From the NCBI GenBank assembly GCA_035939775.1, contig DASZFO010000180.1, positions 1-44,529 on the forward strand: DNA of 44,529 nucleotides, in the 5' to 3' direction. The stretch comes from Pirellulales bacterium. Lineage in GTDB: Bacteria > Planctomycetota > Planctomycetia > Pirellulales > DATAWG01. Made by a program: the position numbers and the translations under genes. The notes under the pieces were generated by a model. That model had not been told where the DNA came from. It was given only the letters and a program-made list of their open reading frames with translations, and searched no databases. This document shows, in pieces, positions 4,148 to 21,753 of the stretch (the first letter of the stretch is position 1; each line of letters opens with the position of its first letter).

Positions 4148-4214
4148 GGCTTTGTTCTCCTTGAAAATGTGCGCCCGGCGATCCGTATCCTCAAAAACGA
4201 CGTCAGCACCCGGA

Positions 4215-4267
4215 TGCGAGAGCCGGGATTTGAACCCGGACGGGTTGCCCCACTGGATCCTAAGTCC
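4215..4267 (-). pseudogene. Displaced 3' half of tRNA-Leu(UAG) = attL end of the integrated element
   Basis: Read on the minus strand, this stretch has half of the anticodon arm (GGACTTAGGATCCAG), a short variable arm (GGGGCAACCCG), a perfect T arm (CCGGG, TTCAAAT, CCCGG) and the acceptor strand CTCTCGC plus A. There is no 5' half. The sequence upstream does not offer the required GCGAGAG acceptor strand, and only 3 of 5 anticodon-stem pairs form. The missing acceptor strand is the one on the complete tRNA-Leu at 21349-21430. Joining that 5' half to this 3' half gives a canonical leucine tRNA. It is therefore read as the original chromosomal 3' half pushed aside by integration. Confidence 0.8.
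4252..4267 (+). repeat. attL core: 16-bp direct repeat
   Basis: ACTGGATCCTAAGTCC is identical at 4252-4267 and 21386-21401, and identity stops sharply on both sides. In both places it is the anticodon stem-loop segment of tRNA-Leu(UAG), a common crossover target for tyrosine integrases. The two copies define an element of about 17,134 bp. Confidence 0.8.
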
Positions 4268-4292: not shown

Positions 4293-4391
4293 TGGAGTTT
4301 ATTCTAGCCGAGAAAACAGCGATCAACAGCCCTGTGCTGGTTCAGCAGATTCCGCCAACTTCGGCAAGTCGTGGAGTTTTTTTGGAGTTTC
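4293..4391 (+). promoter_or_regulatory. Left arm-type integrase-binding sites (TGGAGTTT motifs)
   Basis: TGGAGTTT occurs at 4293-4300, 4372-4379 and 4383-4390. The last two are 11 bp apart, one helical turn, inside a 21-bp block (4371-4391) that is repeated exactly at 21263-21283. The block starts 104 bp inside the left core and its partner ends 103 bp inside the right core. In the excised circle the two would flank the attP core symmetrically as direct repeats. This fits arm-type binding sites of a heterobivalent tyrosine integrase. The repeat is seen directly; the binding is inferred. Confidence 0.55.
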
Positions 4392-4628: not shown

Positions 4629-4865
4629 ATGGCCAAAAGTCAAAAGTCGATCCGGATGAAAGCAGCGGCAGCGCCAAAGCCGATGCGCCTCAGCACTCGC
4701 GAGAGCCTGGCGGACCGCAAGGAAGCCGCGCAGATCGAGCTGATCGAAGCACAGGTGAAAGAAACTCTCGCCCATGCAGAGGAGCGGATCGCATACGCGG
4801 AAATGAACCGCGCTCAAGCCGAAAAAGATCGGGAAGAAACGAAGCAGCTCCGCCGCCAGCGCTAG
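4629..4865 (+). CDS. Small charged coiled-coil protein of the element
   Basis: A 78-aa protein, basic in the first third and then a continuous charged helix of mixed Glu, Lys, Arg and Ala (from ESLADRKEAAQIELIEAQVK onward) that should form a coiled coil. No catalytic motif is visible and no family is recognised. The ATG at 4629 has GGAGGG upstream; the in-frame codons before it read through the att region and are not protein-like. It converges with the HTH/zinc-ribbon gene on the other strand and their stop codons overlap. It is the first gene inside the left end of the element. Confidence 0.55.
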   Translation: MAKSQKSIRMKAAAAPKPMRLSTRESLADRKEAAQIELIEAQVKETLAHAEERIAYAEMNRAQAEKDREETKQLRRQR

Positions 4866-5335
4866 CCTTCACCGCGCTCGATCTTGGCTCGCTTGATTTC
4901 CTCGAGCCGCGCGACTTCATCGGGAAGAAGTTCTAGCTTGAGCGGATCCACCTTTGCGATCGCCTGGACGGCATGATGCTTTCGGTCGGCCCGCGGCAGG
5001 CGCTGGGCGCCGATGCGAAGTTGTTTTGCCTTGTCGATCATGGCGCGGTTTGCGTCGAGTGTGCGATGAGCCGCGGCCAGTCGGCACGTACGGCAGGGTG
5101 TGATCACGATCCGGCGGCCGCAGGAGCAGCGTATCGGCCGGCGGAGCCGCTTCTCGCCTGGCCCCAGCTCGAGGTCTTGCTCACATACGATCTGCCAAGC
5201 TGTCTGCCGGCTGATCGTGATCGACCAGCCGTCGAGGAACGCGGCAATCTGGCGTGAACTGGCGCCAGCAGCGGCGAGCCGGCGGACCACTTCGCGGACC
5301 GGTTTGGCAGTCGCAGGTCGGCCGACTCGGGCCAT
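4862..5335 (-). CDS. HTH plus zinc-ribbon DNA-binding protein (paralogue 1)
   Basis: A 157-aa protein with an N-terminal helix-turn-helix of resolvase/transposase type (VREVVRRLAAAGASSRQIAAFL, residues 13-34, and a second helix around SRQTAWQIV). Four cysteines at 70, 72, 81 and 84 in RCSCGRRIVITPCRTCR suggest a zinc ribbon. The C-terminal third is a charged helix. A second protein of the element (10920-11267) has the same order, an HTH followed by a zinc ribbon ending in PCRTCR, so the two are paralogues. The gene is divergent from the recombinase-ATPase gene, 466 bp away. It may be a transcriptional regulator or a directionality factor; no closer family is recognised. Confidence 0.65.
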   Translation of the reverse strand: MARVGRPATAKPVREVVRRLAAAGASSRQIAAFLDGWSITISRQTAWQIVCEQDLELGPGEKRLRRPIRCSCGRRIVITPCRTCRLAAAHRTLDANRAMIDKAKQLRIGAQRLPRADRKHHAVQAIAKVDPLKLELLPDEVARLEEIKRAKIERGEG

Positions 5336-5666
5336 CTATCGCCTCGTCGCGGGGCGGTAATTCCGAACTCGACCCCGTCGCGAGGCCGCTTCCAGCATTC
5401 ACGCAGTCATTCAGCATATCCGGGAATCCGTCCCTGTTTCGCCACCAAATGCTCGGTAAATTACCACCGACGCCAGCGAAACCGCCGTGCGACTTCCTCT
5501 CAAAATGCGGCAAGGGCATAGCTCCGGGCGGGAAAAAAACGCATCGTCTCGGCGTCGCCATGAGGCGCTCTTGCGAAGTTGTTGACGGTCGCCGCGTCGT
5601 TATGGCAGAATGCCGGCACTTAAACCGAGGCCGAAAGGCTTCAGATTCGGAAGACGACGATGATTC
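5336..5666. other. Divergent intergenic region between HTH/zinc-ribbon and recombinase-ATPase genes
   Basis: Most of this stretch shows no credible gene. A 161-residue open frame (5254-5739, +) has unstructured composition and overlaps the opposite-strand gene. Near the right side there is a promoter-like pair (5582-5611) and a small hairpin, AGGCC-GAAA-GGCTT, at about 5628-5641, which would be the first structure of the recombinase-ATPase leader. Divergent regulation of the two flanking genes is plausible. Confidence 0.4.
5582..5611 (+). promoter_or_regulatory. Candidate sigma-70 promoter for recombinase-ATPase gene
   Basis: TTGACG (5582-5587) and CAGAAT (5606-5611) are 18 bp apart, with 5 of 6 and 4 of 6 matches to the -35 and -10 consensus. 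Initiation near 5618 would give a leader of about 185 nt that includes the three-way-junction structure before the ATG at 5802. The hexamers are read by eye and planctomycete promoters are poorly defined. Confidence 0.3.
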
Positions 5667-5764
5667 AAAGGGCCGCAACCCTCGTGAACCGTGCGCTTGC
5701 CGTGAGGCGGCGCGGGTGCTTTCCGAAGCGCCTAAGTAGCGATTCACGAGGGCTGCGGCTTTTT
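5667..5764 (+). ncRNA. Structured leader A: three-way-junction palindrome before recombinase-ATPase gene
   Basis: The outer stem pairs 5672-5688 with 5743-5759: 16 of 17 pairs with one A-C mismatch. It can be extended by AAAGG against TTTTT (5667-5671 with 5760-5764). Inside are two hairpins. The first (5689-5715) has stems GCGC and GCC capped by a GTGA GNRA-type tetraloop. The second is a perfect 7-bp stem (5715-5732) with loop TCCG. The single-stranded joint is TAAGTAGCG. A further 5-bp hairpin (5768-5783), a GGAAAGGG box and the ATG at 5802 follow. Leader B at 19932-20013 has the same plan. It could be a regulatory leader RNA, an attenuator (strong stem then five T) or a folded single-stranded DNA site. 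Confidence 0.5.
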
Positions 5765-5801
5765 GCTGCGCTGTTGTTAGCGCGACGGAAAGGGCGCCAC
5801 G

Positions 5802-8800
5802 ATGATCGCCCTCAACTCTGCCGCATTCTCCGCGGCCGAACCTTGCGACCGGCAACCGCCGGCCGAAGAATCCGCGCCATGCTCGCCCATCGCGCCCGCC
5901 CGCGATGCCCGCGGCCTGTCCCCTTCCATGCCGTTGTCGGAGTTTTTCGACGTCTACTTCACGCCCGTCTTCCTCGCCGGCGGCCGCAAGGCGGATGGCA
6001 CGATTCGCGAATACGAGCAAACGCTGAAATTCTGGCGACTCCTCACGGATGATCCGCCGCTCAATGAGATCGACACGCTCGTGTTGACCAAGTTTTTCGA
6101 CAGCTTCCGCCAACGGACTGGAAAAAGCGGTCGCGGGAAACTCGCCAGCAACACGGTCCGCAAGCACGCTATTGCCCTTCAGGCAGTGCTCGACAGAGCC
6201 GGGCCGTTTAGACGCGACAGTAGAAACAGCCGCAACGCGGAGCTGCTCGAGCGCGTCCCTCTCGTCGAAAAGCCTGGCATCCAGATCAAGGAAATCAACG
6301 ATTGCATGACGCTTGCGGAGATCGGCCAGTTTCTGGACGGCTGCGATCTAGCCAAGTCGCCGCGCGGCCTGAATATCTCGCCCTGCGATTTTTGGCGGGC
6401 GATGGTGACTGTGATCTACAACTGCGGCCCGCGAATTGGCACCTGTATGGGGCTTCGCTGGTCGTGGCTCGAAAAGGACGAGCACGCGCAATGGTTCGCA
6501 ATTCCGTCCATCGCGGATAGCTGCATCGGAACCAGCGCAAACAAGTCGAAGCGTCACTTCAAGATGTACGTTAACAGGCACGCCTCGGCGGCGCTGCAGA
6601 TCGTGCGCGGCTGCTGGGAAGGCCGATCGCCGCGCATCGACCCCGACTTCGTATTTCCGTGGCTCGGCACACCGAAGGCCCTTCAAGTCATGCGGAGGCG
6701 GATCCTTGCGGGGCTGGACATTGTGCCCGCGCGGCAAGAGATTCTTGGCTTCCATTCCGTGCGGAAGGCGGCCGCGACGGCCATTTCGCAGATCAATCCC
6801 GCCGCGACTGCCGCCTTTTTGGGGCATCGGACTCGCGACATTGCACTTAACCATTACGTCGATAAGAGCGTGCTGCTCGATGCGATCGAGAAGCTGCCGC
6901 AGCCGGCGAGCGCGTTCGATCGTCATCCGCAGCGGCTATTGCTGAGCGAGCGCGGGACCGCCGTGCTATGGAAATGGGAGCGACTGATCGACACGAACGA
7001 CCGACGGCGCGCCGAGAATCCGGCAGTTAGTGACCAGGAGATTCTGGACGCCTACCATTGGCGCTATCCCCACCTGCCGACGGCCACGCTTGAGCAGCTC
7101 AGAAATGCGCGCCGACCGTCGGCCAGGCTAAGGAGCGGGATGCCAGCAGCTTCGCAATGTGACGGGCTGACAGGCGGTAGCGAGCCGACGGTTCCCGAGA
7201 CGCCGGCGACCGTGGAAGCATCGCCGCCGCGGCCATCGTCGGAACCGACGACGAGTACCGCATCGCCAACCACGGTGCTGCTCGATCGGCACTGGCCACA
7301 GTCGCCGATCGAGATCATCGGCCCGCAGCTCCGGATCGCCGACGGCTTGTCGTTGCCGCCCGAAGCCGTCACGCAGACCTTTGCCATCTTGGCAAAGCGC
7401 GGAGTCGGCAAAACCCACACGGCAACAGTGCTCGCCGAGGAAATGCTCAAGCTCGGGCAGCAGATCATCGTCTACGATCCGACCGGGGCTTGGCACGGGC
7501 TCAAGAAATCGGCCGACGGAAAGGGACCAGGCCTGCCCGCGGTAGTGTTCGGGGGCGAACACGCCGACGTGGAGATCCACGATCCGGACTATTCGGGCGC
7601 CCTTATTGCGAGCACGATCATCGACCAGCGAATCTCCGCGGTGCTTGATTGCAGTCTGCTCCGCGGAAATGACCGAAGCACGTTCCTGGCCGATTTCTTC
7701 GAGACGGTCTACCACGGGAACCGATCGCCGCTGCATCTTTTCTTGGATGAGGCGCAAACGATCGTGCCGCAGCGGCCAAAGGGAGGAGCTGAAGGGACGC
7801 GACTTTCCGTCGCCGTGGAAGACTGTTTCTTGCAAGGCCGCCGCCGCGGAATTGGCGCCACGATCATCAGCCAGCGGCCGGCACTCGTCAGCAAGGCCGT
7901 TACCACACAATGCGAGGTACTCATAGCAATGCGAATGGTCGGCGCCCTGGACCGGCGGGCGATTCAGGAATGGATCGCCGTTCACGCTGAAGATTCTCAG
8001 CGGGCCCGCGCCATGATCGCCAGCCTACCGTCGCTCGGCATTGGTGAGGGCTGGGTTTGGTCCCCCGGCTGGCAAGACCTATTCCATCGGGTAAAGTTCC
8101 GCCTGAGGGAAACGCTGGATACATCCGCCACGCCGACGCCGGAAATGACGATGCTCGAGCGGAAGCCATCAGCGCCGGCGGACCTGGCCGCGATCGCCGA
8201 GCAGCTCCGCCAGGCGGCAACACAGAAAGCCGCCGGCCGCGAGCATTCCGCGCCAAATACTCGAAAGACGCCGCCCGCACCTGTAGGGAACGGCCTCCAT
8301 GCCGTTCCGGGAACTGCTCGCCATCACCGGCGAGGGCGGCCGACATCGCCGCGGCCAGCGATAGGCGATCGACTGCCGGCCGCGCCGCAATTGGATCCAC
8401 CCTCGTCGCCCCCGGCGAGCCTGCAGGCGCGATCGATCTTTTCGCGGATTGCATCCGCAGCCCGTAGCGCGATGGCCAGCATCGTCGGCCGCGGCGATGC
8501 ATCCAGGAAGCCGGCAGAAGGAGGCGAACGGAGGTGGCGCGATTGTCGTATTACCGAATTGTTTGAAGCCTGGTTCCGCCCGTTGCTGTTGCGGGGAAGG
8601 ACGCACGCCAGCGAGATTGAATCGTTTGCCGAAGCTGTCGCGCTTTGGACAGAGCTGGGCGACGATCTTCCAATCCGGAAAATCGACGAACGATCAATCG
8701 AGAAATATCGGCGTGGGCTCCTCACTGCGACGCACCGCATAGGGCTATTCGCCGGGGAGGGCCTGCCCGCCGAAGCTCGGTCGCATCATCTGCTTTGCAT

Positions 8801-8834
8801 TAGAACCCTGCTCAATTCCTGTCCGCGGGATTAA
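5802..8834 (+). CDS. Tyrosine recombinase fused to HerA/DUF87-type ATPase, with second core-binding domain
   Basis: A 1010-aa fusion in one uninterrupted frame. Residues about 44-130 are a SAM-like core-binding domain. Residues about 165-370 are a tyrosine-recombinase catalytic domain with all expected residues: R211 (GPRIGTCMGLRW), a Lys in NKSK (about 248-250), H318 and R321 (FHSVR), H342 (FLGH) and Y352 (NHY). A Pro/Thr-rich linker (about 455-495) leads to an ATPase of about 500-765 residues resembling HerA/DUF87 or VirB4-like motors. It shows Walker A AKRGVGKT (531-538), Walker B LHLFLDEAQ (645-652), basic GRRRG (679-683) and a sensor-like IISQRPA. After another linker, residues 915-1010 repeat the core-binding domain without a catalytic part. 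The ATG follows a GGAAAGGG box. A DNA-strand-exchange enzyme coupled to a DNA-translocating motor is the natural inference; this architecture is not one I know. Confidence 0.8.
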   Translation: MIALNSAAFSAAEPCDRQPPAEESAPCSPIAPARDARGLSPSMPLSEFFDVYFTPVFLAGGRKADGTIREYEQTLKFWRLLTDDPPLNEIDTLVLTKFFDSFRQRTGKSGRGKLASNTVRKHAIALQAVLDRAGPFRRDSRNSRNAELLERVPLVEKPGIQIKEINDCMTLAEIGQFLDGCDLAKSPRGLNISPCDFWRAMVTVIYNCGPRIGTCMGLRWSWLEKDEHAQWFAIPSIADSCIGTSANKSKRHFKMYVNRHASAALQIVRGCWEGRSPRIDPDFVFPWLGTPKALQVMRRRILAGLDIVPARQEILGFHSVRKAAATAISQINPAATAAFLGHRTRDIALNHYVDKSVLLDAIEKLPQPASAFDRHPQRLLLSERGTAVLWKWERLIDTNDRRRAENPAVSDQEILDAYHWRYPHLPTATLEQLRNARRPSARLRSGMPAASQCDGLTGGSEPTVPETPATVEASPPRPSSEPTTSTASPTTVLLDRHWPQSPIEIIGPQLRIADGLSLPPEAVTQTFAILAKRGVGKTHTATVLAEEMLKLGQQIIVYDPTGAWHGLKKSADGKGPGLPAVVFGGEHADVEIHDPDYSGALIASTIIDQRISAVLDCSLLRGNDRSTFLADFFETVYHGNRSPLHLFLDEAQTIVPQRPKGGAEGTRLSVAVEDCFLQGRRRGIGATIISQRPALVSKAVTTQCEVLIAMRMVGALDRRAIQEWIAVHAEDSQRARAMIASLPSLGIGEGWVWSPGWQDLFHRVKFRLRETLDTSATPTPEMTMLERKPSAPADLAAIAEQLRQAATQKAAGREHSAPNTRKTPPAPVGNGLHAVPGTARHHRRGRPTSPRPAIGDRLPAAPQLDPPSSPPASLQARSIFSRIASAARSAMASIVGRGDASRKPAEGGERRWRDCRITELFEAWFRPLLLRGRTHASEIESFAEAVALWTELGDDLPIRKIDERSIEKYRRGLLTATHRIGLFAGEGLPAEARSHHLLCIRTLLNSCPRD

Positions 8835-9040: not shown

Positions 9041-9565
9041 ATGCCGAAGCGCAGTTCGAAACCCCAGAGCGCGCCGACCAGGCCACGGCCGACTAAAGCC
9101 GAATTCGCAAGCGCGCTCGGGATTTCACCGCGTCAGGTTCAGAACCATTTCGCCGCGGGCTGCCCGAGGACTTCGATCGCCGCGGCCAGGCGCTGGCGGG
9201 CGGAGAATATCCGACTTGGCGAAAAGCGTTCAGGATCCAAGAGGGGCCGCGCCGAGATCATCGCGCTTGGAATCGCGAAGCTATTTGAGGAAGTCCGCGG
9301 CAGCAAACTCGCTAATCAGATTGCGGAAGGCAATACGATCCCGCTCGCCGAGGCTGAACGGTTCTTGTCCGAAATGAATCTGCGAATCAAGTCGCGGTTG
9401 GAAGCCATCCCCGATGAACTCGAGATGGGGTTCCCTCCAGACCAGCGGATTGAGGCAAAACGCAAATTGCAGGACGCTATCCGAGCGTTGCTGCACGAAA
9501 TGGCCGACCCAAACTTCTTGAGGAAGCCGCTCCCGAAGGTCCGCAAGTCGCGTAAGAAGAAGTGA
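9041..9565 (+). CDS. HTH protein resembling phage terminase small subunit / DNA-packaging protein
   Basis: A 174-aa basic protein. Residues about 18-55 (TKAEFASALGISPRQVQNHF, then a Cys-Pro turn and RRWRAEN) read as a MerR/Nu1-like helix-turn-helix, as in small terminase subunits that recognise packaging sites. The rest is helical, charged and ends in a Lys/Arg-rich tail (KVRKSRKKK). No large terminase subunit was found in the element, so a packaging role is not confirmed by context. A plain transcription factor is equally possible. The ATG at 9041 is preceded by GAGGTGACC. Confidence 0.5.
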   Translation: MPKRSSKPQSAPTRPRPTKAEFASALGISPRQVQNHFAAGCPRTSIAAARRWRAENIRLGEKRSGSKRGRAEIIALGIAKLFEEVRGSKLANQIAEGNTIPLAEAERFLSEMNLRIKSRLEAIPDELEMGFPPDQRIEAKRKLQDAIRALLHEMADPNFLRKPLPKVRKSRKKK

Positions 9566-9698: not shown

Positions 9699-9721
9699 TC
9701 GAAGACTAAGGAATGCCTCTT

Positions 9722-10885
9722 ATGCCGGGCGACGGCGAAAACGATCAATTCCTCGAGGGGCGGAAGCTAGATTCCGCGCGCACAACCGGTTTTCAGGTAC
9801 CGGCGACGGAGCCGCAAGAAGCGCGCGCGCATGGCTCCGACCCGAACGATCTCGATCAACCCGCGCCAATCATCTCCTTTCCGTCGCCGGCCACAAGGTA
9901 CATCGATGCCTTGCCCGCGAGAGGTTACCGCAACGCCTTGTCCATCTTCTATGGGGCGTTCTTCAGGCCGTGGGTTCTGATCGACCGCGGAGTACCTGAA
10001 TCAGAGATCGAAGAATATGGCGAATCGGTTCGGCTTTGGGAGCGGCTCAGGTGCGAGCAGGATCTCGATCGGATCGATCGCCGCGCTATGTCGCTCTTCC
10101 GCGACCGCCTCGGACCAGAGCTCGAGCGGTGCGAGGGCGAACCGCCGGATCCCTCGCTAATCGAGAAGCACATTGACAAGATCGCGACGATCCTCGACGT
10201 GGCCGGCTACGCCGACGGACGCAAAGGTGAACGGACCGAATGGGCCAGAAAGCTCCTCAACGAAATCACGATGGTCCCGCGTCCGCCGACGGTGCCCGAA
10301 TCGGTCGTTGTCGCCCATCGCGAACACGTCCTGCTTTTTGCCGAGGCCGCGGCGACCGCCCGCGAGCCGACGGCAATCGGAATTGAGCCGGCCGCATTCT
10401 GGCGGGCACTCATTGCGGTCCTCTACAACACGGGCATTCGGATTGGCGCGGCGCTTCGCCTTGAAAAAAGTTGGATCGCCGAAGACGAGTCGGGCAAAAC
10501 GTGGATCCGAGTTCACCTCGGCCGTTGGGATGACGATCGCCGGCTTGGCGCCTTGAACCCTCCGCTCATCTATCTGAATTGTGAAGCGTGCAAAGCCACG
10601 AAAGCGCTCGACGTCGCCGTTGCCCCAGACATGGACGCGGATCTGCTCGTTCCCTGGCGGCACAGCCCATCGTTTCTGACGACGATCAGAGCGGAGATTC
10701 TCGCGCGATCGAGGATCCCCGCCGAGGCGCGTCTCGTTGGATTTAACGGTTTTCGCGCCCCGATCTTCGAGCTAATGCGGCGCGATTGTTGGATCGATCA
10801 TTATCCGATCCACGGGCAGGAGCGGCTTCGAGCCTGGACGGCCATGTGCGATGCCATTCCGCCGCTGGGCTTTGAATTCAAATAG
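9722..10885 (+). CDS. Catalytically degenerate tyrosine-recombinase-like protein
   Basis: A 387-aa relative of the recombinase-ATPase protein. Its core-binding segment (IFYGAFFRPWVLIDRG through SVRLWERL) aligns with both core-binding segments of that protein. The catalytic domain keeps the first arginine (YNTGIRIGAALRL, R240 counted from this start) and the strand of the HxxR box. That box reads GFNGFR, with Asn in place of His, and the LGH box and nucleophilic Tyr cannot be found before the protein ends. It should bind DNA but not cleave it. The ATG at 9722 is preferred to 9713 because AAGGA lies at a workable distance. An HTH/zinc-ribbon gene follows 34 bp downstream. Confidence 0.65.
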   Translation: MPGDGENDQFLEGRKLDSARTTGFQVPATEPQEARAHGSDPNDLDQPAPIISFPSPATRYIDALPARGYRNALSIFYGAFFRPWVLIDRGVPESEIEEYGESVRLWERLRCEQDLDRIDRRAMSLFRDRLGPELERCEGEPPDPSLIEKHIDKIATILDVAGYADGRKGERTEWARKLLNEITMVPRPPTVPESVVVAHREHVLLFAEAAATAREPTAIGIEPAAFWRALIAVLYNTGIRIGAALRLEKSWIAEDESGKTWIRVHLGRWDDDRRLGALNPPLIYLNCEACKATKALDVAVAPDMDADLLVPWRHSPSFLTTIRAEILARSRIPAEARLVGFNGFRAPIFELMRRDCWIDHYPIHGQERLRAWTAMCDAIPPLGFEFK

Positions 10886-10919
10886 CGGAGCTACGAGCAC
10901 TTTGAAAGGAAGCGAAGCC

Positions 10920-11267
10920 ATGCCGCAGAAAAAGCATTGTTGCCGTCCTCCCGTTCCCCGTGCCATCGCCGCGATTGCCCGCGAACTGGCAATTTCCGGC
11001 GGCTTGTCACAACGCCAGATCGTCATGCAGCTCAAGAAGCGATCCATATCGATCTCGCTCGCGACAATTCAACGGATTCTCGCCGGCACGCGTCTATGCG
11101 ACAGCCTGCCAGAGGACGCAGAATTGCCGCTCCCGCGCCCAGACGAACTGAGGGCCGGTGAAAGCTGGTGCGCTCCGCCGCAGCGCTGCCCGGATTGTGG
11201 TGCCCTGATCTTGATAGAGCCGTGCCGCACATGCCGAGTGCGACGGCTGGCGATGAGGGGGATCTGA
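10920..11267 (+). CDS. HTH plus zinc-ribbon DNA-binding protein (paralogue 2)
   Basis: A 115-aa protein with an HTH (VPRAIAAIARELAISGGLSQ then RQIVMQLK and LATIQRILAG) and a C-terminal zinc ribbon with cysteines at 90, 93, 102 and 105 (RCPDCGALILIEPCRTCR). It shares the terminal PCRTCR and domain order with the 4862-5335 protein. It starts 34 bp after the degenerate recombinase, with GAAAGGAAG upstream, and its stop codon overlaps the next ATG (TGATG). The three genes 9722-12142 therefore look like one operon. It is a probable DNA-binding partner or regulator; the exact family is not recognised. Confidence 0.65.
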   Translation: MPQKKHCCRPPVPRAIAAIARELAISGGLSQRQIVMQLKKRSISISLATIQRILAGTRLCDSLPEDAELPLPRPDELRAGESWCAPPQRCPDCGALILIEPCRTCRVRRLAMRGI

Positions 11268-12258: not shown

Positions 12259-12453
12259 GTGGCAAACCCGAAAGATGATGAGCAGCTCGACCAAAGCCCG
12301 GCCACGCTGGTCGCGATCGCCCGCGCCGCCCATATCGCCGGCGACCAGGACCTCGAGCGCGCCGCAAGAAGGCAGCTCGATCAGCGGTTCGCGATCAAAA
12401 TCCAATTCGGCATATCGCTCGATCGGTCGCGATTAAGGGGGCCTTTGGCGTGA
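12259..12453 (+). CDS. Small hypothetical protein
   Basis: A 64-aa helical protein (VAIARAAHIAGDQDLERAARRQ) starting at a GTG with AGAGGATG just upstream. Its stop overlaps the GTG of the next gene, which supports it being translated. No motif beyond amphipathic helices is visible. Low complexity and short length keep the confidence moderate. Confidence 0.5.
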   Translation: MANPKDDEQLDQSPATLVAIARAAHIAGDQDLERAARRQLDQRFAIKIQFGISLDRSRLRGPLA

Positions 12454-12728
12454 AGCTCGACGCCAGCGATATTACCGACTTGAAACCGCTAATCGAGACG
12501 GTCGCCCGAGCGGCGGTTGACGAGATTCGCCGCGATGAGGCTGCGCTCGATTCGCGACGCCTGGCCTACCCGGAGGCCGAGGCCGCGGCGATCCTGGGCG
12601 TGCGGAAGCACGTGCTGGGGGCGGCCAGGCGAGCTGGACTGCTCCAGGCTTCCCGGCTGGGAAAGCAGACGCTTTACTCGCGCGACGAGCTGCTCCGATT
12701 CCTCCGCGATGGAGGCGTCGACCGGTGA
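12450..12728 (+). CDS. Excisionase-like helix-turn-helix protein
   Basis: A 92-aa protein whose residues about 38-88 (AYPEAEAAAILGVRKHVLGA, then ARRAGLLQASRLGKQTLYSR and DELLRFL) fit the MerR/excisionase-type HTH_17 domain. A helix-turn-helix is followed by a small wing with a basic turn, and a final helix that positions the motif. Such proteins bind att-site arms and direct excision, or regulate transcription. The start GTG overlaps the preceding stop. In an element with arm-like att sites, a recombination directionality role is a reasonable inference, although the gene lies about 7 kb from the integrase. Confidence 0.6.
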   Translation: MKLDASDITDLKPLIETVARAAVDEIRRDEAALDSRRLAYPEAEAAAILGVRKHVLGAARRAGLLQASRLGKQTLYSRDELLRFLRDGGVDR

Positions 12729-12886: not shown

Positions 12887-12918
12887 TTTGCCCCTTTGCC
12901 CCTTTGCCCCTTTGCCCC
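12887..12918 (+). repeat. Octanucleotide tandem repeat (TTTGCCCC x 4)
   Basis: Four perfect copies of TTTGCCCC lie between a strong ribosome-binding site with a TTG (GGAGGA at 12857-12862, TTG at 12864) and the ATG at 12922. Eight is not a multiple of three. In the present state the TTG frame is out of register with the downstream gene; five or two copies would put it in register. Confidence 0.8.
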
Positions 12919-12921
12919 TTT

Positions 12922-14157
12922 ATGGCCGCCAAATCATCCACGCAGGAGCAAATTGCCGTTCGCCGTGTCTTGCGGCCCGGCGCGCTCGAGGTGCCACGCG
13001 GCATTTTCGTCAGCGAGAGCATAACCTGGCAGCCGCGGTGGCTGTGGATCGCGCTTTGGAATCTCGCCGGACGTCGAGCGGGGACTGTCACGACCAGCAA
13101 GATCGAACTGGCCGGCTTGCTCAAACGCAACGAGTTGCGATCGATCGACCATTACATCGAACACTTGGAAGCCGCCGGGGTGATCGAATCCCGCAACGAA
13201 CCGCACGGGCTACTTTGCCTGTACGTGCATGACCCCGACCTTGCCGACCCTTTGTATGCGAGCCGTGGCCGTTCAAGTGGCCGGTTGCTGTTCGACAAAT
13301 TCTTCTCACCGGACGACGCGCCCATGCTGGTAGAACTCCCCGCGCCGATTCTCGCGGCCAGCACAACTCGCATCGAAGATGGCGCGGCGTTTTCACCGGG
13401 AAAAACGCCGCGGGTGGCAACAACCATTACCGGGGAAAACGCCGTGCCATTGACTCCGCCACCAGCGCTAGAATCGACGGTCGACGAAACTCCCAAACGG
13501 GTTGCGCCAAAATATGGCCATCCGGCCACGGCGAATCTCCCGGTAAAAACGCCGGCACGGAATTCGCTTTTTGGAGGAGGAGGAGGTTTGAAATTCAAGA
13601 TACCTCCTCCTCCGTCACCGAGCGGGCTGACGCCGAAATTGCTGGAAGCGAAGCTCCAATCGATCGGACTGGCGCTAGCAAAAATGGCCGTTAGTTCGGC
13701 GATCGACGCGGGGTTGAGCCTGTCGGAAATCGCGTGGGCCATCGCCTTTTGGGACGCCAACAGGCCGGCATGGGAAGTGGGCGTCCTGTATCATCGCTTC
13801 GTCGAGGTCAGAAACCCACGACTCCGAGTCGATGAGGGCTGGCCAAGGCCCTCGACCGCATGGACGAAGGCACACACCCGCCAGACCGACGCCACAATTG
13901 GCCGCCGCGCGGAGCATGAGCGCGATCGGAAGCGCGCCGAATCGGAGCGCGAGATCGCGGCGGACCTTGAGCGCCGGCTCGGTCCGATGCTTGACGGGCT
14001 CAGTCCGGACCGGCTCAACGAGCTGGCAGCCGAGCGGCTCGCCGGCCAACCGATTCTCGAGAGACAATTTCGGCGCCACGGCGTGCGATCCGCACTTGTT
14101 CGTGAGCGACTTCTCGCCGCACTCGCCGATCGGGAGGTGACCGCCGATGCGACGTAG
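12922..14157 (+). CDS. Winged-helix protein, possible replication/primosome-like protein
   Basis: A 411-aa protein. Residues about 12-110 (VLRPGALEVPRGIFVSESIT through LLKRNELRSIDHYIEHLEAA) read as a winged-helix domain similar in style to phage replication-initiator or helicase-loader N-termini. A Pro/Thr-rich, poorly conserved linker containing GGGGG follows. The last 170 residues are helical and strongly basic/acidic (RRAEHERDRKRAESEREIAA). The ATG at 12922 lacks a clear ribosome-binding site. A strong one lies 60 bp upstream at a TTG in a different frame, separated by an 8-bp repeat array. It may be expressed in a phase-variable way. The function is not certain. Confidence 0.55.
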   Translation: MAAKSSTQEQIAVRRVLRPGALEVPRGIFVSESITWQPRWLWIALWNLAGRRAGTVTTSKIELAGLLKRNELRSIDHYIEHLEAAGVIESRNEPHGLLCLYVHDPDLADPLYASRGRSSGRLLFDKFFSPDDAPMLVELPAPILAASTTRIEDGAAFSPGKTPRVATTITGENAVPLTPPPALESTVDETPKRVAPKYGHPATANLPVKTPARNSLFGGGGGLKFKIPPPPSPSGLTPKLLEAKLQSIGLALAKMAVSSAIDAGLSLSEIAWAIAFWDANRPAWEVGVLYHRFVEVRNPRLRVDEGWPRPSTAWTKAHTRQTDATIGRRAEHERDRKRAESEREIAADLERRLGPMLDGLSPDRLNELAAERLAGQPILERQFRRHGVRSALVRERLLAALADREVTADAT

Positions 14158-14272: not shown

Positions 14273-15181
14273 ATGATCGCAATGAGCAACGACGTTGAAC
14301 TGCCGGCGGCTTTGTTGGCCGCGGCGGAAGCCTTTTCGTTCAGCGAGGCAAACCTGATCGCGGCGCCGCGGATCGAGCAGTACTTCGGCCCGTGGGCCGT
14401 CGAAGAAATCCAGTTTCAGGCGGCCGTCAACGTGCTCAAGCGGATCGATATTCGCGCCCACGTCGCAGATTCGCTGGCCTCGAGCACGAACCGACAACCG
14501 CCCCGCGCCGCTCGCCGAACCTACAGCATGGCCGGATCGACCGCAATCGTCCCACTCAGCGGCGCGCTGATGAAGGCCGAGTCGAGCTTGAACCTTTCGA
14601 CGTCGACCGTGTTCGCCCGCCGGCAGGTCCGCCAGGCGGCCGCGGACGAAGGCGTAGCGGGGATTCTGCTCGTGATCGATTCGGCCGGCGGTACCACCGC
14701 CGGCACAAGCGACCTGGCTGCCGATGTAGCGCGGGCCGCCAAGAGCAAACCGGTTTTGGCCTACTGCGAAGATCTATGTGCAGCGGCCGCGTATTGGATC
14801 GCCAGCCAGGCCACGAAGGTTTTCGCCAACGCGACTGCGATCGTGGGCAGCATCGGGAGCTTCATGGTGATCGAAGATTCGAGCCAACGCGCTGAGAATG
14901 AAGGCGTGAAGGTCCACGTCATCCGGGCCGGAAAGTTCAAAGGGGCCGGCTGTCCGGGGACTCCGATCGATGAGGAGTTTCTAGAAAACTGGCAGTCGAT
15001 CATCGACAACCTCAACGAGCATTTCCTGCGTGCCGTGGCCGCGGGCCGTGGGCTGTCGCCCGAGGCGGTCCGCGAGCTGGCCGACGGCCGCGCCCATCTC
15101 GCGGCGACCGCTCAAGCGAAGCGGCTGATCGACGGCGTGAAAACGATCGATGAAGTGCTGGCCATGTTCCCCAAAAAATAG
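14273..15181 (+). CDS. S49 (SppA/phage capsid protease-like) family protein lacking the expected serine
   Basis: A 302-aa S49 peptidase homologue. Recognisable parts are ILLVIDSAGGTTAG (residues 131-144), KPVLAYCEDLCAAAAYWIAS (159-178), TAIVGSIGSFMVI (188-200) and RAGKFKGAG (218-226). S49 enzymes of phages cut scaffold and capsid precursors; SppA degrades signal peptides. In the family the nucleophile lies in (A)S-x-x-Y-W. Here that position (about residue 171) is Ala in CAAAAYW. The basic Lys region is kept. Activity is therefore doubtful. No signal peptide is visible, which fits the phage type. The start follows AAAGGTGAG. Confidence 0.75.
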   Translation: MIAMSNDVELPAALLAAAEAFSFSEANLIAAPRIEQYFGPWAVEEIQFQAAVNVLKRIDIRAHVADSLASSTNRQPPRAARRTYSMAGSTAIVPLSGALMKAESSLNLSTSTVFARRQVRQAAADEGVAGILLVIDSAGGTTAGTSDLAADVARAAKSKPVLAYCEDLCAAAAYWIASQATKVFANATAIVGSIGSFMVIEDSSQRAENEGVKVHVIRAGKFKGAGCPGTPIDEEFLENWQSIIDNLNEHFLRAVAAGRGLSPEAVRELADGRAHLAATAQAKRLIDGVKTIDEVLAMFPKK

Positions 15182-19806: not shown

Positions 19807-19931
19807 AAACTATTTGACTTTCAAGCGGTCGGCGCCCAGAATGCGGGCCGTCGGCCGCGGTGCCTGATAACACCAAATCCGATCGCCAGCATCGGCACAA
19901 ACGAAGGCTTCTTGATGCCATACCAAATGTT

Positions 19932-20013
19932 CCCAGACCGCCCGTAGCGGGCTTGTCGCAAGGCGAGCCGGCGTCCCCCTTCGGACGCTTATTAGCGCTA
20001 CGGGCGGCCTGGG
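19932..20013 (+). ncRNA. Structured leader B: three-way-junction palindrome before integrase
   Basis: The outer stem pairs 19932-19949 with 19996-20013: 17 of 18 pairs, 12 of them an unbroken run ending at the junction, with one A-C mismatch. Hairpin 1 (19950-19969) is 8 bp with a GCAA tetraloop. Hairpin 2 (19971-19988) is a 6-bp stem. The joint and closing sequence reads TTATTAGCG, against TAAGTAGCG in leader A. A further perfect 7-bp hairpin (20023-20041) and a GGAGGG box follow before the ATG at 20056. The whole 19807-20055 gap shows no gene. Leader RNA, planctomycete palindrome or folded DNA site are all possible. Confidence 0.55.
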
Positions 20014-20055
20014 GGCGTTTGGCCGCGCCCGATCGGCGCGGCGGAGGGTTCCAGT

Positions 20056-21216
20056 ATGAGAGCCTGGCTTTTCCAACCCTACGCGCGAAAGCTCAAGCTC
20101 GGCGCGGAGGATTGCCCCTGGTCGGTCGGCTGGTATGACCCCGAGGGCCGCAAGAAATCAAAATCGGTCGGCTCGAAAAGCGCTGCAGAGAAGCATCGGC
20201 AGAGGATCCAAGGGCAGCTCGCCGCGGGAACTTATGAAGACGTTTCCCGCAAGCGCTGGGATGAATTCGAAGCCGAGTTTGAATCGAAGGTCATGGCCGG
20301 GATGGAAGATGGCACGCGCGAAGCGACTCGGCATGCGCTCAACCATTTCATCAGAATCACCAGGCCGATGAAGATGCAGGCGATCACCAGCAAGACGATC
20401 GCCGACTACATCGCGGCCAGGCGGCTCGAGCCGAAGCATCGGCCACGGCCTGCGAAACGCAACTCTGAGCGACCTCGGCCGGCGACCGGTACTGTCGCGA
20501 GAGTTTCGCCGGCGACAATCAACAAAGAGCTGCGCACGATCCGCGCCACGCTGAACAAGGCCGCCCGCTGGGGATACCTCGCGAAGACTCCGGAGATCGA
20601 GTTTCTCCGGGAACCGGGAAAGCTCCCCATTTACATCCCGCCCGAGCACTTCGCGAAGTTGTACCGTTCCTGCGATTCGGCACGCTGGCCGGCGCAACAG
20701 CCCTATGCCGCCGCGGATTGGTGGCGAGGGCTGTTGATGATGGCCTATATGACCGGCTGGCGGATCGGCTCGCTTTTGGCGGTCCGTTGGGACGATGTTG
20801 ATCTGAAGGCCGCGACCGCGGTTAGTCGGCACGATGACAACAAAGGGAAGCGCGATCAAAAAACTCCCCTCTATCCGATCGTGGTGGAGCATCTCGCGAA
20901 GCTGGTCGGTTTCGATTCCAAGGTCTTCCCTTGGCCCTATTCGCGCCGATCGATCTGGACCGAATTCGAAAAAATCGGGCTGGCCGCCGGTGTCCGACCG
21001 GAGGACCGGAAGAAGCCCCATTACACGTTCCACGATCTCCGGCGGTCGTTCGCCACGATGAACGCGGCGGCGCTCACTCCCGAGGCGCTCACGTGCCTGA
21101 TGGGGCATACCGATCATCAGACCACGCAGAGGTATATTAACCTCGCGGAGCAATTGAGACCGCGCCAATTCAAGCTCTTCGTCCCGCCGACAACCGTGGT
21201 GGCCGACGCCGGCTGA
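20056..21216 (+). CDS. int: Tyrosine integrase of the element
   Basis: A 386-aa site-specific tyrosine recombinase that should catalyse integration and excision at tRNA-Leu. An N-terminal arm-binding-like basic region (residues 1-65) and a core-binding domain (about 66-175) precede the catalytic domain. It has the full active site: R236 (TGWRIGSLLAVRW), Lys 263-265 (NKGK), H326 and R329 (FHDLRRSFAT), H351 (LMGHTD) and Y360 (TQRYINL). It sits 132 bp from the intact tRNA, next to the right-hand arm repeat, in the usual place for an integrase. The start follows GGAGGG. It is only distantly like the recombinase of the 5802-8834 fusion. Confidence 0.93.
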   Translation: MRAWLFQPYARKLKLGAEDCPWSVGWYDPEGRKKSKSVGSKSAAEKHRQRIQGQLAAGTYEDVSRKRWDEFEAEFESKVMAGMEDGTREATRHALNHFIRITRPMKMQAITSKTIADYIAARRLEPKHRPRPAKRNSERPRPATGTVARVSPATINKELRTIRATLNKAARWGYLAKTPEIEFLREPGKLPIYIPPEHFAKLYRSCDSARWPAQQPYAAADWWRGLLMMAYMTGWRIGSLLAVRWDDVDLKAATAVSRHDDNKGKRDQKTPLYPIVVEHLAKLVGFDSKVFPWPYSRRSIWTEFEKIGLAAGVRPEDRKKPHYTFHDLRRSFATMNAAALTPEALTCLMGHTDHQTTQRYINLAEQLRPRQFKLFVPPTTVVADAG

Positions 21217-21262: not shown

Positions 21263-21283
21263 GTGGAGTTTTTTTGGAGTTTC
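21263..21283 (+). promoter_or_regulatory. Right arm-type integrase-binding site
   Basis: An exact 21-bp copy of 4371-4391, containing two TGGAGTTT motifs 11 bp apart (21264-21271 and 21275-21282). It lies between the integrase stop and the tRNA, 103 bp from the core. See the left arm entry for the symmetry argument. Confidence 0.55.
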
Positions 21284-21348
21284 AGTCCAGTTCCGGCCGC
21301 CGATCGGACTCGGGCCGAGCCGACTTTCGGCCGGGAAAATCCGGGAAA

Positions 21349-21430
<82 letters not shown>

Positions 21431-21753
21431 AAAGAGTTACGCTGTAATCATTTGAGCATCGTTTGCTCGGGTGTCAATTGGATTGCCCGGCGTCCGGCTT
21501 AAGTCGTTCGCGGCTCGTTATTGTCGCGCTGCCTTCTCCATGCGGACATTGAAGCCAAGTCGCGATGTCGCATGGAAAGTCTCAATTGGCCTGACCTTAC
21601 GATGAGCCGTGTCGTCGCGAATAATAGACCACGCTTGACCGAGCGGCTTCCGCAGCTAAGCTGAAATCTGAGGTTTGCGGCCCGATCGGAGATTCAACGG
21701 GGCTGGGCCGCGAGCGGGCAGAAAAAGCGTTGCAAGCGTTTCCACAGGGTGCG
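21431..21753. other. Intergenic region right of the element
   Basis: About 320 bp with no credible gene on either strand. The sequence just upstream of the tRNA (higher coordinates) should hold its promoter, but no clear hexamers were identified. Nothing else stands out. Confidence 0.4.

Follow-up and report, generated by a model that had tools for sequence, protein, structure and literature searches.

Whether a site-specific recombinase can carry its own DNA motor in the same polypeptide is the question raised by one locus in the window, as we call the whole 44,529-nucleotide stretch of Pirellulales DNA analysed here. Control of tyrosine recombinases by a DNA translocase is known from FtsK, which acts in trans on Xer enzymes. 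An earlier note on this DNA had proposed that a single frame joins a complete tyrosine recombinase, a HerA-type ATPase and a second core-binding (CB) domain, a layout for which it knew of no described system. Judging from sequence and structure models, the fusion is a real, intact-looking architecture, unique so far and derived from two known families.

Layout of the fusion gene

The fusion gene (5802-8834, + strand) encodes 1010 amino acids, arranged according to sequence, profiles and models as CB1, catalytic domain, helical linker, HerA-like ATPase and CB2, with a ribosome-binding-like stretch, GGAAAGGG, just before its ATG. The frame is stop-free throughout, as the earlier note had it, and this was confirmed by ORF calling and by comparison with 30 Markov shuffles of the window, in which the longest stop-free frame was 515 codons. 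Codon statistics support this frame in CB1, the catalytic domain, the linker helix region and the ATPase, and are neutral over the linker of residues 806-905 and CB2. The recombinase and ATPase calls draw on the agreement of sequence, profiles and AlphaFold models, and the second CB call on profiles. Full-length MAFFT alignment placed recombinases onto the ATPase; each half was therefore modelled on its own, and the models describe the halves individually.

The N-terminal half has the hallmarks of the tyrosine recombinase superfamily, namely the R-K-HxxR-H/W-Y set, the characteristic fold and a CB domain. CB1, a SAM-like core-binding domain recognised by profiles, spans residues 44-140 (5931-6221, +) and is followed by the catalytic domain at residues 160-376 (6279-6929, +). 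PHROG integrase profiles match residues 41-446 (E 9.5e-22), while Pfam Phage_integrase reaches E 4.7e-5 and 23.7 bits, under its curated cut-off of 27.1. When this half is aligned with nine relatives from phages and with the third recombinase of the window, R211, K248, H318, R321, H342 and Y352 are all positioned as expected, and R211, R321 and Y352 are invariant. Foldseek matched the fold of this half to XerH, Cre and lambda Int. The catalytic set described in the earlier note thus proved complete, and the recombinase half is, on alignment and model evidence, a tyrosine recombinase with an intact predicted active site.

The second half contains a RecA-like ATPase of the HerA/FtsK class at residues 506-774 (7317-8123, +), identified by DUF87 (E 1e-7, above the Pfam cut-off), the PADLOC HerA profile (E 1e-18), alignment and modelling. 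The alignment bears out most of the motifs previously read from the sequence, with Walker A (K537/T538), Walker B (D649/E650), R682 and Q691/R692 consistent with the ATPase family and with K537, E650, R682, Q691 and R692 invariant among seven sequences; the first Walker A residue had to be corrected to Ala, as in most members of this family. The earlier note had also made its reading depend on a RecA-like fold at residues 500-765, and residues 506-775 were indeed modelled as RecA-like, with pLDDT mostly above 88. The best structural match of this segment is HerA (Z 28; Foldseek E 2e-13), and the RecA-like core scores Z 21-28 against HerA, which together with the profiles upholds the HerA-type identity. 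Walker A and B, the conserved Arg and Gln and the RecA-like fold, by which the FtsK-HerA superfamily is defined, are all present. The fold of the STIV2 packaging ATPase B204 also matches (Z 20), as does PHROG 2666, named terminase large subunit, although to the ATPase part only (E 1.7e-14); a large terminase combines a RecA-like motor with an RNase-H nuclease domain, and no nuclease family was matched in family searches of the fusion. Against the NCBIfam equivalogs for HerA proper the fusion reaches 37 bits versus a cut-off of 970, with a similar shortfall for other equivalogs, and no HAS-barrel family matched the fusion protein. Compared with HerA as it occurs in HerA-NurA and HerA-Sir2 systems, the RecA-like core is held in common and the partner enzymes differ. 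The evidence from sequence and model indicates that this half is a HerA-class ATPase with intact predicted nucleotide-binding residues.

The two halves are joined by a small helical linker domain (residues 384-447; 6951-7142, +), for which no homologue was found in any relative nor in 197 genomes of the order, and by a Pro/Ser/Thr-rich linker ahead of the ATPase. The ATPase domain starts at the same point as in stand-alone members of its family. Their C-terminal region of about 280 amino acids, which ends in two winged helices (by profile in L063, by inspection in the others), is missing; in its place stand a low-complexity linker and CB2, and no winged-helix family was matched in residues 806-1010 (8217-8831). 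CB2 (residues 916-1010; 8547-8831, +) was proposed in the earlier note and is borne out by profiles (E 1.2e-16), its model being helical but of low confidence. Direct comparison of CB2 with CB1 gave E 1.7e-7. CB2 scores 43.8 bits against L005, a separate recombinase lineage, compared with 17.3 bits against CB1, and is therefore not a simple duplication of CB1; for the same reason, the fusion protein appears from sequence comparison to draw on at least three sources.

Host element and relatives of the two halves

The fusion gene sits in an element of about 17.1 kb integrated in tRNA-Leu(UAG) (21348-21431, -), as established by tRNA scan and end analysis. The element supplied the 3' half of this gene (21348-21401), and the displaced original 3' half (attL) lies at 4214-4267 (-); when it is joined to the 5' half, the two give a canonical tRNA-Leu that folds perfectly, T stem included. 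A repeat search found a 21-nt exact direct repeat, GTGGAGTTTTTTTGGAGTTTC, near both att cores, with the left copy (4371-4391, +) about 103 nt inside the left core and the right copy (21263-21283, +) about 102 nt inside the right core; these are candidate arm-type sites. An empty-site comparison through the neighbouring Dps gene found no tRNA in relatives. Beside the tRNA lies a separate and complete tyrosine recombinase (20056-21216, +; ORF, Pfam and other profiles), the element integrase, so the fusion is probably dispensable for ordinary integration. A third recombinase (9713-10885, +) is degenerate, keeping the box-I Arg while the His of HxxR is replaced by Asn and the Lys and GH block are lost.

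Other genes of the element point to phage. A small-terminase-like gene (9041-9565, +; phrog_57, E 3.5e-18) directly follows the fusion, beginning 206 bp downstream, and an S49 head-maturation-protease-like gene of phage origin lies at 14273-15181 (+; phrog_53, E 3e-63). Profiles also identified an HTH_17 excisionase-like protein (12450-12728, +), and the gene at 12904-14157 (+), probably encoding a replication protein, also occurs close to stand-alone relatives of the recombinase and of the ATPase. Profile searches of the element identified neither a portal nor a capsid. From its sequence, the element is best described as phage-derived and tRNA-Leu-integrated. The recombinase cluster is flanked by two small genes (4862-5335, -; 10851-11267, +) that are related to each other and combine an HTH-like part with a cluster of cysteines.

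Sequence searches of genomes and viral contigs with the whole fusion or its recombinase returned no relative, and profiles were needed to place each half in its family. The family of the recombinase half consists of integrases from planctomycetes and phages; its tRNA-targeting members (L003, L145, L167, L178-L187) are 28-39% identical to this half, have the same active site and often lie beside a tRNA; a tRNA was found within 1.5 kb of 13 of 29 planctomycete relatives. Unlike the fusion, these integrases all stand alone, without an ATPase. The ATPase family is found widely, in phages and actinobacterial plasmids as well as in diverse genomes. Its stand-alone members (for instance L017, L063, MW202482 and NZ_CP084587, from phages and actinobacterial plasmids) are 42-57% identical over the ATPase domain and consist of about 500-600 amino acids, with the ATPase at the N terminus, then the region of about 280 amino acids and no recombinase domain. 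One of them, phage MW202482, encodes a separate large terminase and a portal.

Fused relatives were found on neither side. The ATPase stands alone at all 128 loci of its family (a total in which a few contigs are counted twice), and among about 45 relatives of the recombinase no fusion to an ATPase was seen. We also considered whether the two genes are regular neighbours and rejected this, as any recombinase gene lay within 4 kb at 15 of the 128 ATPase loci and the ATPase was present at none of 11 viral recombinase loci. No second recombinase-ATPase fusion was found in any of the collections searched, and a literature search of incomplete coverage found no tyrosine recombinase with an ATPase domain, both in line with the earlier note's view of the layout as undescribed. 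That note had added, however, that homologues always encoded as separate genes would point to a local accidental fusion, and every homologue of either half that we found is a separate gene. Since, in addition, the two families do not tend to neighbour each other, the fusion looks, from these sequence comparisons, like a lineage-specific singleton. On a phage contig (L108, 2640-4010), a frameshifted integrase, a tRNA fragment and a stand-alone ATPase follow one another, and a fusion could arise from such an order.

A structured leader RNA before recombination genes

The strongest folds for their GC content on either strand of the window lie at 19921-20040 and 5661-5780, with z-scores of -7.3 and -6.0, respectively. 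They correspond to two T-shaped leader RNAs of one family, identified by fold scan and covariance model, one upstream of the element integrase gene (19923-20022, +) and the other upstream of the fusion gene (5666-5765, +). In both, a long stem with an A.C mismatch is topped by two hairpins and followed by a short unpaired stretch, a further hairpin and a Shine-Dalgarno sequence; the leaders end 34 nt (integrase) and 36 nt (fusion) before the start codon. Upstream of the fusion leader is a weak sigma-70-like promoter match (9/12; 5582-5611, +).

A first covariance model, built from two sequences, one window copy and that of a relative (L167, 2758-2857, -), recovered the other window copy and, in five further genomes outside the model, eight more copies (E 1.4e-18 to 4.7e-7). 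A second model detected copies in 18 of the 257 genomes searched from this order, including the genome of the window, and the family now includes, besides the two window copies and L167, members in planctomycete mobile elements (L201-L208 and L217-L234). Among 22 sequences, both partners vary in 36 of 41 pairs, paired cells amount to 94.8% versus 69.2% in shuffled alignments, and the covariation score is 0.686 versus 0.196 shuffled and at most 0.132 slid; these numbers lean towards structure because the alignments were fitted to the model. The independent matches and the effect size nonetheless leave little doubt that the structure is real. A GNRA tetraloop occupies the first hairpin in all 15 members above 60 bits. 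No Rfam family matched the leader at the gathering score, at which only the tRNA was matched, and the family is apparently previously undescribed. Rfam search, covariation and independent copies led us to reject the leader as a known Rfam family, a plain hairpin or chance. We also considered a folded single-strand DNA recombination site of the attC kind, but the GNRA loops and the steady spacing from ribosome-binding sites make RNA the likelier form.

Most copies of at least 47 bits are followed after 23-40 nt by a start codon with a Shine-Dalgarno-like stretch, the exceptions being L208 (88 nt) and L205 and L218 (none by the same rule). Many precede tyrosine recombinase genes or lie within their operons, and in four of eight 10-kb contexts (L210, L211, L213 and L216) two recombinase frames stand near each other behind the leader. 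In most copies the base stem and a U-tract resemble an intrinsic terminator, but not in the copy at 19923-20022. The simplest guess is that the leader acts as a transcription attenuator or in translational control of recombination genes. In our judgement, it is the better-supported novelty of the window. Independently of the fusion result, a common, covarying leader suggests that mobile elements add an RNA-based layer to the control of their integration genes, a proposal open to direct testing. 

Three side observations belong here. In L213, the second recombinase lies next to tRNA-Leu and is closely related to the window integrase (E 5e-141). A longer leader subtype (about 124-128 nt), whose first arm is larger and whose spacing to the start codon is looser, occurs in L208, L221, L222, L224, L225, L226, L227 and L230-L232. 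Finally, a smaller T-shaped structure with a similar junction (GCCUA...), missed by the covariance models, precedes an HTH gene close to a recombinase in L149 (about 1450-1520, -) and L168 (about 790-860, +).

Possible roles of the fusion protein

Our main reading, to which we assign a probability of roughly 0.4, is that the fusion is a working recombinase with its own DNA motor in cis, a bifunctional enzyme of a phage-derived element analogous to FtsK-XerCD. The ATPase would form a HerA-like ring and pull or remodel the DNA of the element; CB1 and CB2, the latter standing where winged helices end the stand-alone members of the ATPase family, may keep the enzyme on its sites. The motor could then bring two sites together or activate strand exchange, with excision or resolution of element multimers as the outcome, much as FtsK acts in trans for XerCD. 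The structured leader RNA, which the gene has in common with the ordinary integrase, is probably needed for expression. Catalytic and nucleotide-binding motifs intact over 1010 codons speak for this reading, as do the HerA and recombinase folds, a recombinase family that targets tRNAs, clear element ends and a rebuilt tRNA. Furthermore, the fusion gene looks maintained, because it and the integrase carry leaders of the same family with an intact covarying fold, and this shared control element argues against a dead relic. Engineered XerD-FtsKgamma fusions are self-activating and recombine alone (PMC5052618), which makes coupling in cis mechanically plausible. On the other hand, they act through local concentration and need no motor, so a tether alone could explain the benefit; the fusion is also a singleton, the stand-alone families do not co-occur, codon statistics are neutral in CB2 and its preceding linker, and the element already has an integrase. 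More tentatively, we propose the wider picture of a one-chain, ATP-driven site-specific recombination machine, with a HerA motor and two DNA-binding CB domains, under an undescribed leader RNA that planctomycete integrative elements place before recombinase operons.

The alternatives differ in how much they ask of the single chain. In a neutral or recent accidental fusion, the recombinase would be an integrase, the ATPase would keep the role of its stand-alone family and their union would add nothing. We regard this as unlikely, though several points favour it: the lack of fused relatives in either family, the rarity of a recombinase gene near the ATPase and one phage in which integrase, tRNA fragment and ATPase lie in a row, fusable by deletion. 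Three in-frame joins, an added linker domain and a CB domain from another lineage nevertheless exceed the loss of one stop codon, and the leader RNA is intact and covarying. The same joins, all in frame across low-complexity linkers and 3 kb free of stops, together with continuous composition, make it highly improbable that assembly or sequencing merely joined separate genes, even in a single draft genome of 384 contigs and with a C-terminal part of neutral codon statistics.

Two further readings give the protein another task. As a DNA-packaging or transfer motor, the HerA domain, together with the small-terminase-like protein, would load the element's DNA into a capsid or export it from the cell, and the task of the recombinase and CB domains would be to recognise the element or cut at it; the neighbouring small-terminase-like gene, the head-maturation-protease-like gene and the PHROG 2666 and B204 matches fit this. 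We consider it improbable, as MW202482 has the same ATPase family alongside a separate large terminase and portal, and the element yielded neither portal nor capsid. It seems quite improbable, too, that the protein is regulatory or structural, its recombinase not acting alone but forming a two-recombinase complex with the second integrase, in which the ATPase would be a switch. Paired recombinase frames at half of the eight leader contexts and the known two- and three-recombinase modules of the Tn554, RIT and GInt types (PMC3414803, PMC5385486) offer parallels, but a complete active site would be superfluous in a purely structural partner.

Among known systems, FtsK-XerCD at dif comes closest to the recombinase-motor arrangement of our main reading, pairing a tyrosine recombinase with a RecA-like translocase of the FtsK-HerA superfamily. 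FtsK, however, is separate and membrane-anchored, whereas the fusion is one chain with a HerA-like motor and without the winged-helix gamma domain of FtsK, none being found in residues 806-1010. By analogy, the fusion may work as a cis version of the FtsK-Xer pair, while not being a member of that system. As a natural cis fusion, it would make it possible to test what the motor does in synapsis and activation on a single purified protein. More than one tyrosine recombinase per element, as in the window element, is also found in Tn554-type, RIT and GInt modules (PMC3414803, PMC5385486). In RIT and GInt, though, three recombinase genes are adjacent (in RIT with short overlaps), while those of the window, starting at 5802, 9713 and 20056, are not, and no motor domain is reported for any of these modules (PMC3414803, PMC5385486). 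Another recombinase with accessory domains in the phylum is a 754-aa protein (L194, 925-3189) that by inspection has two tandem CB-like domains and C-terminal winged helices.
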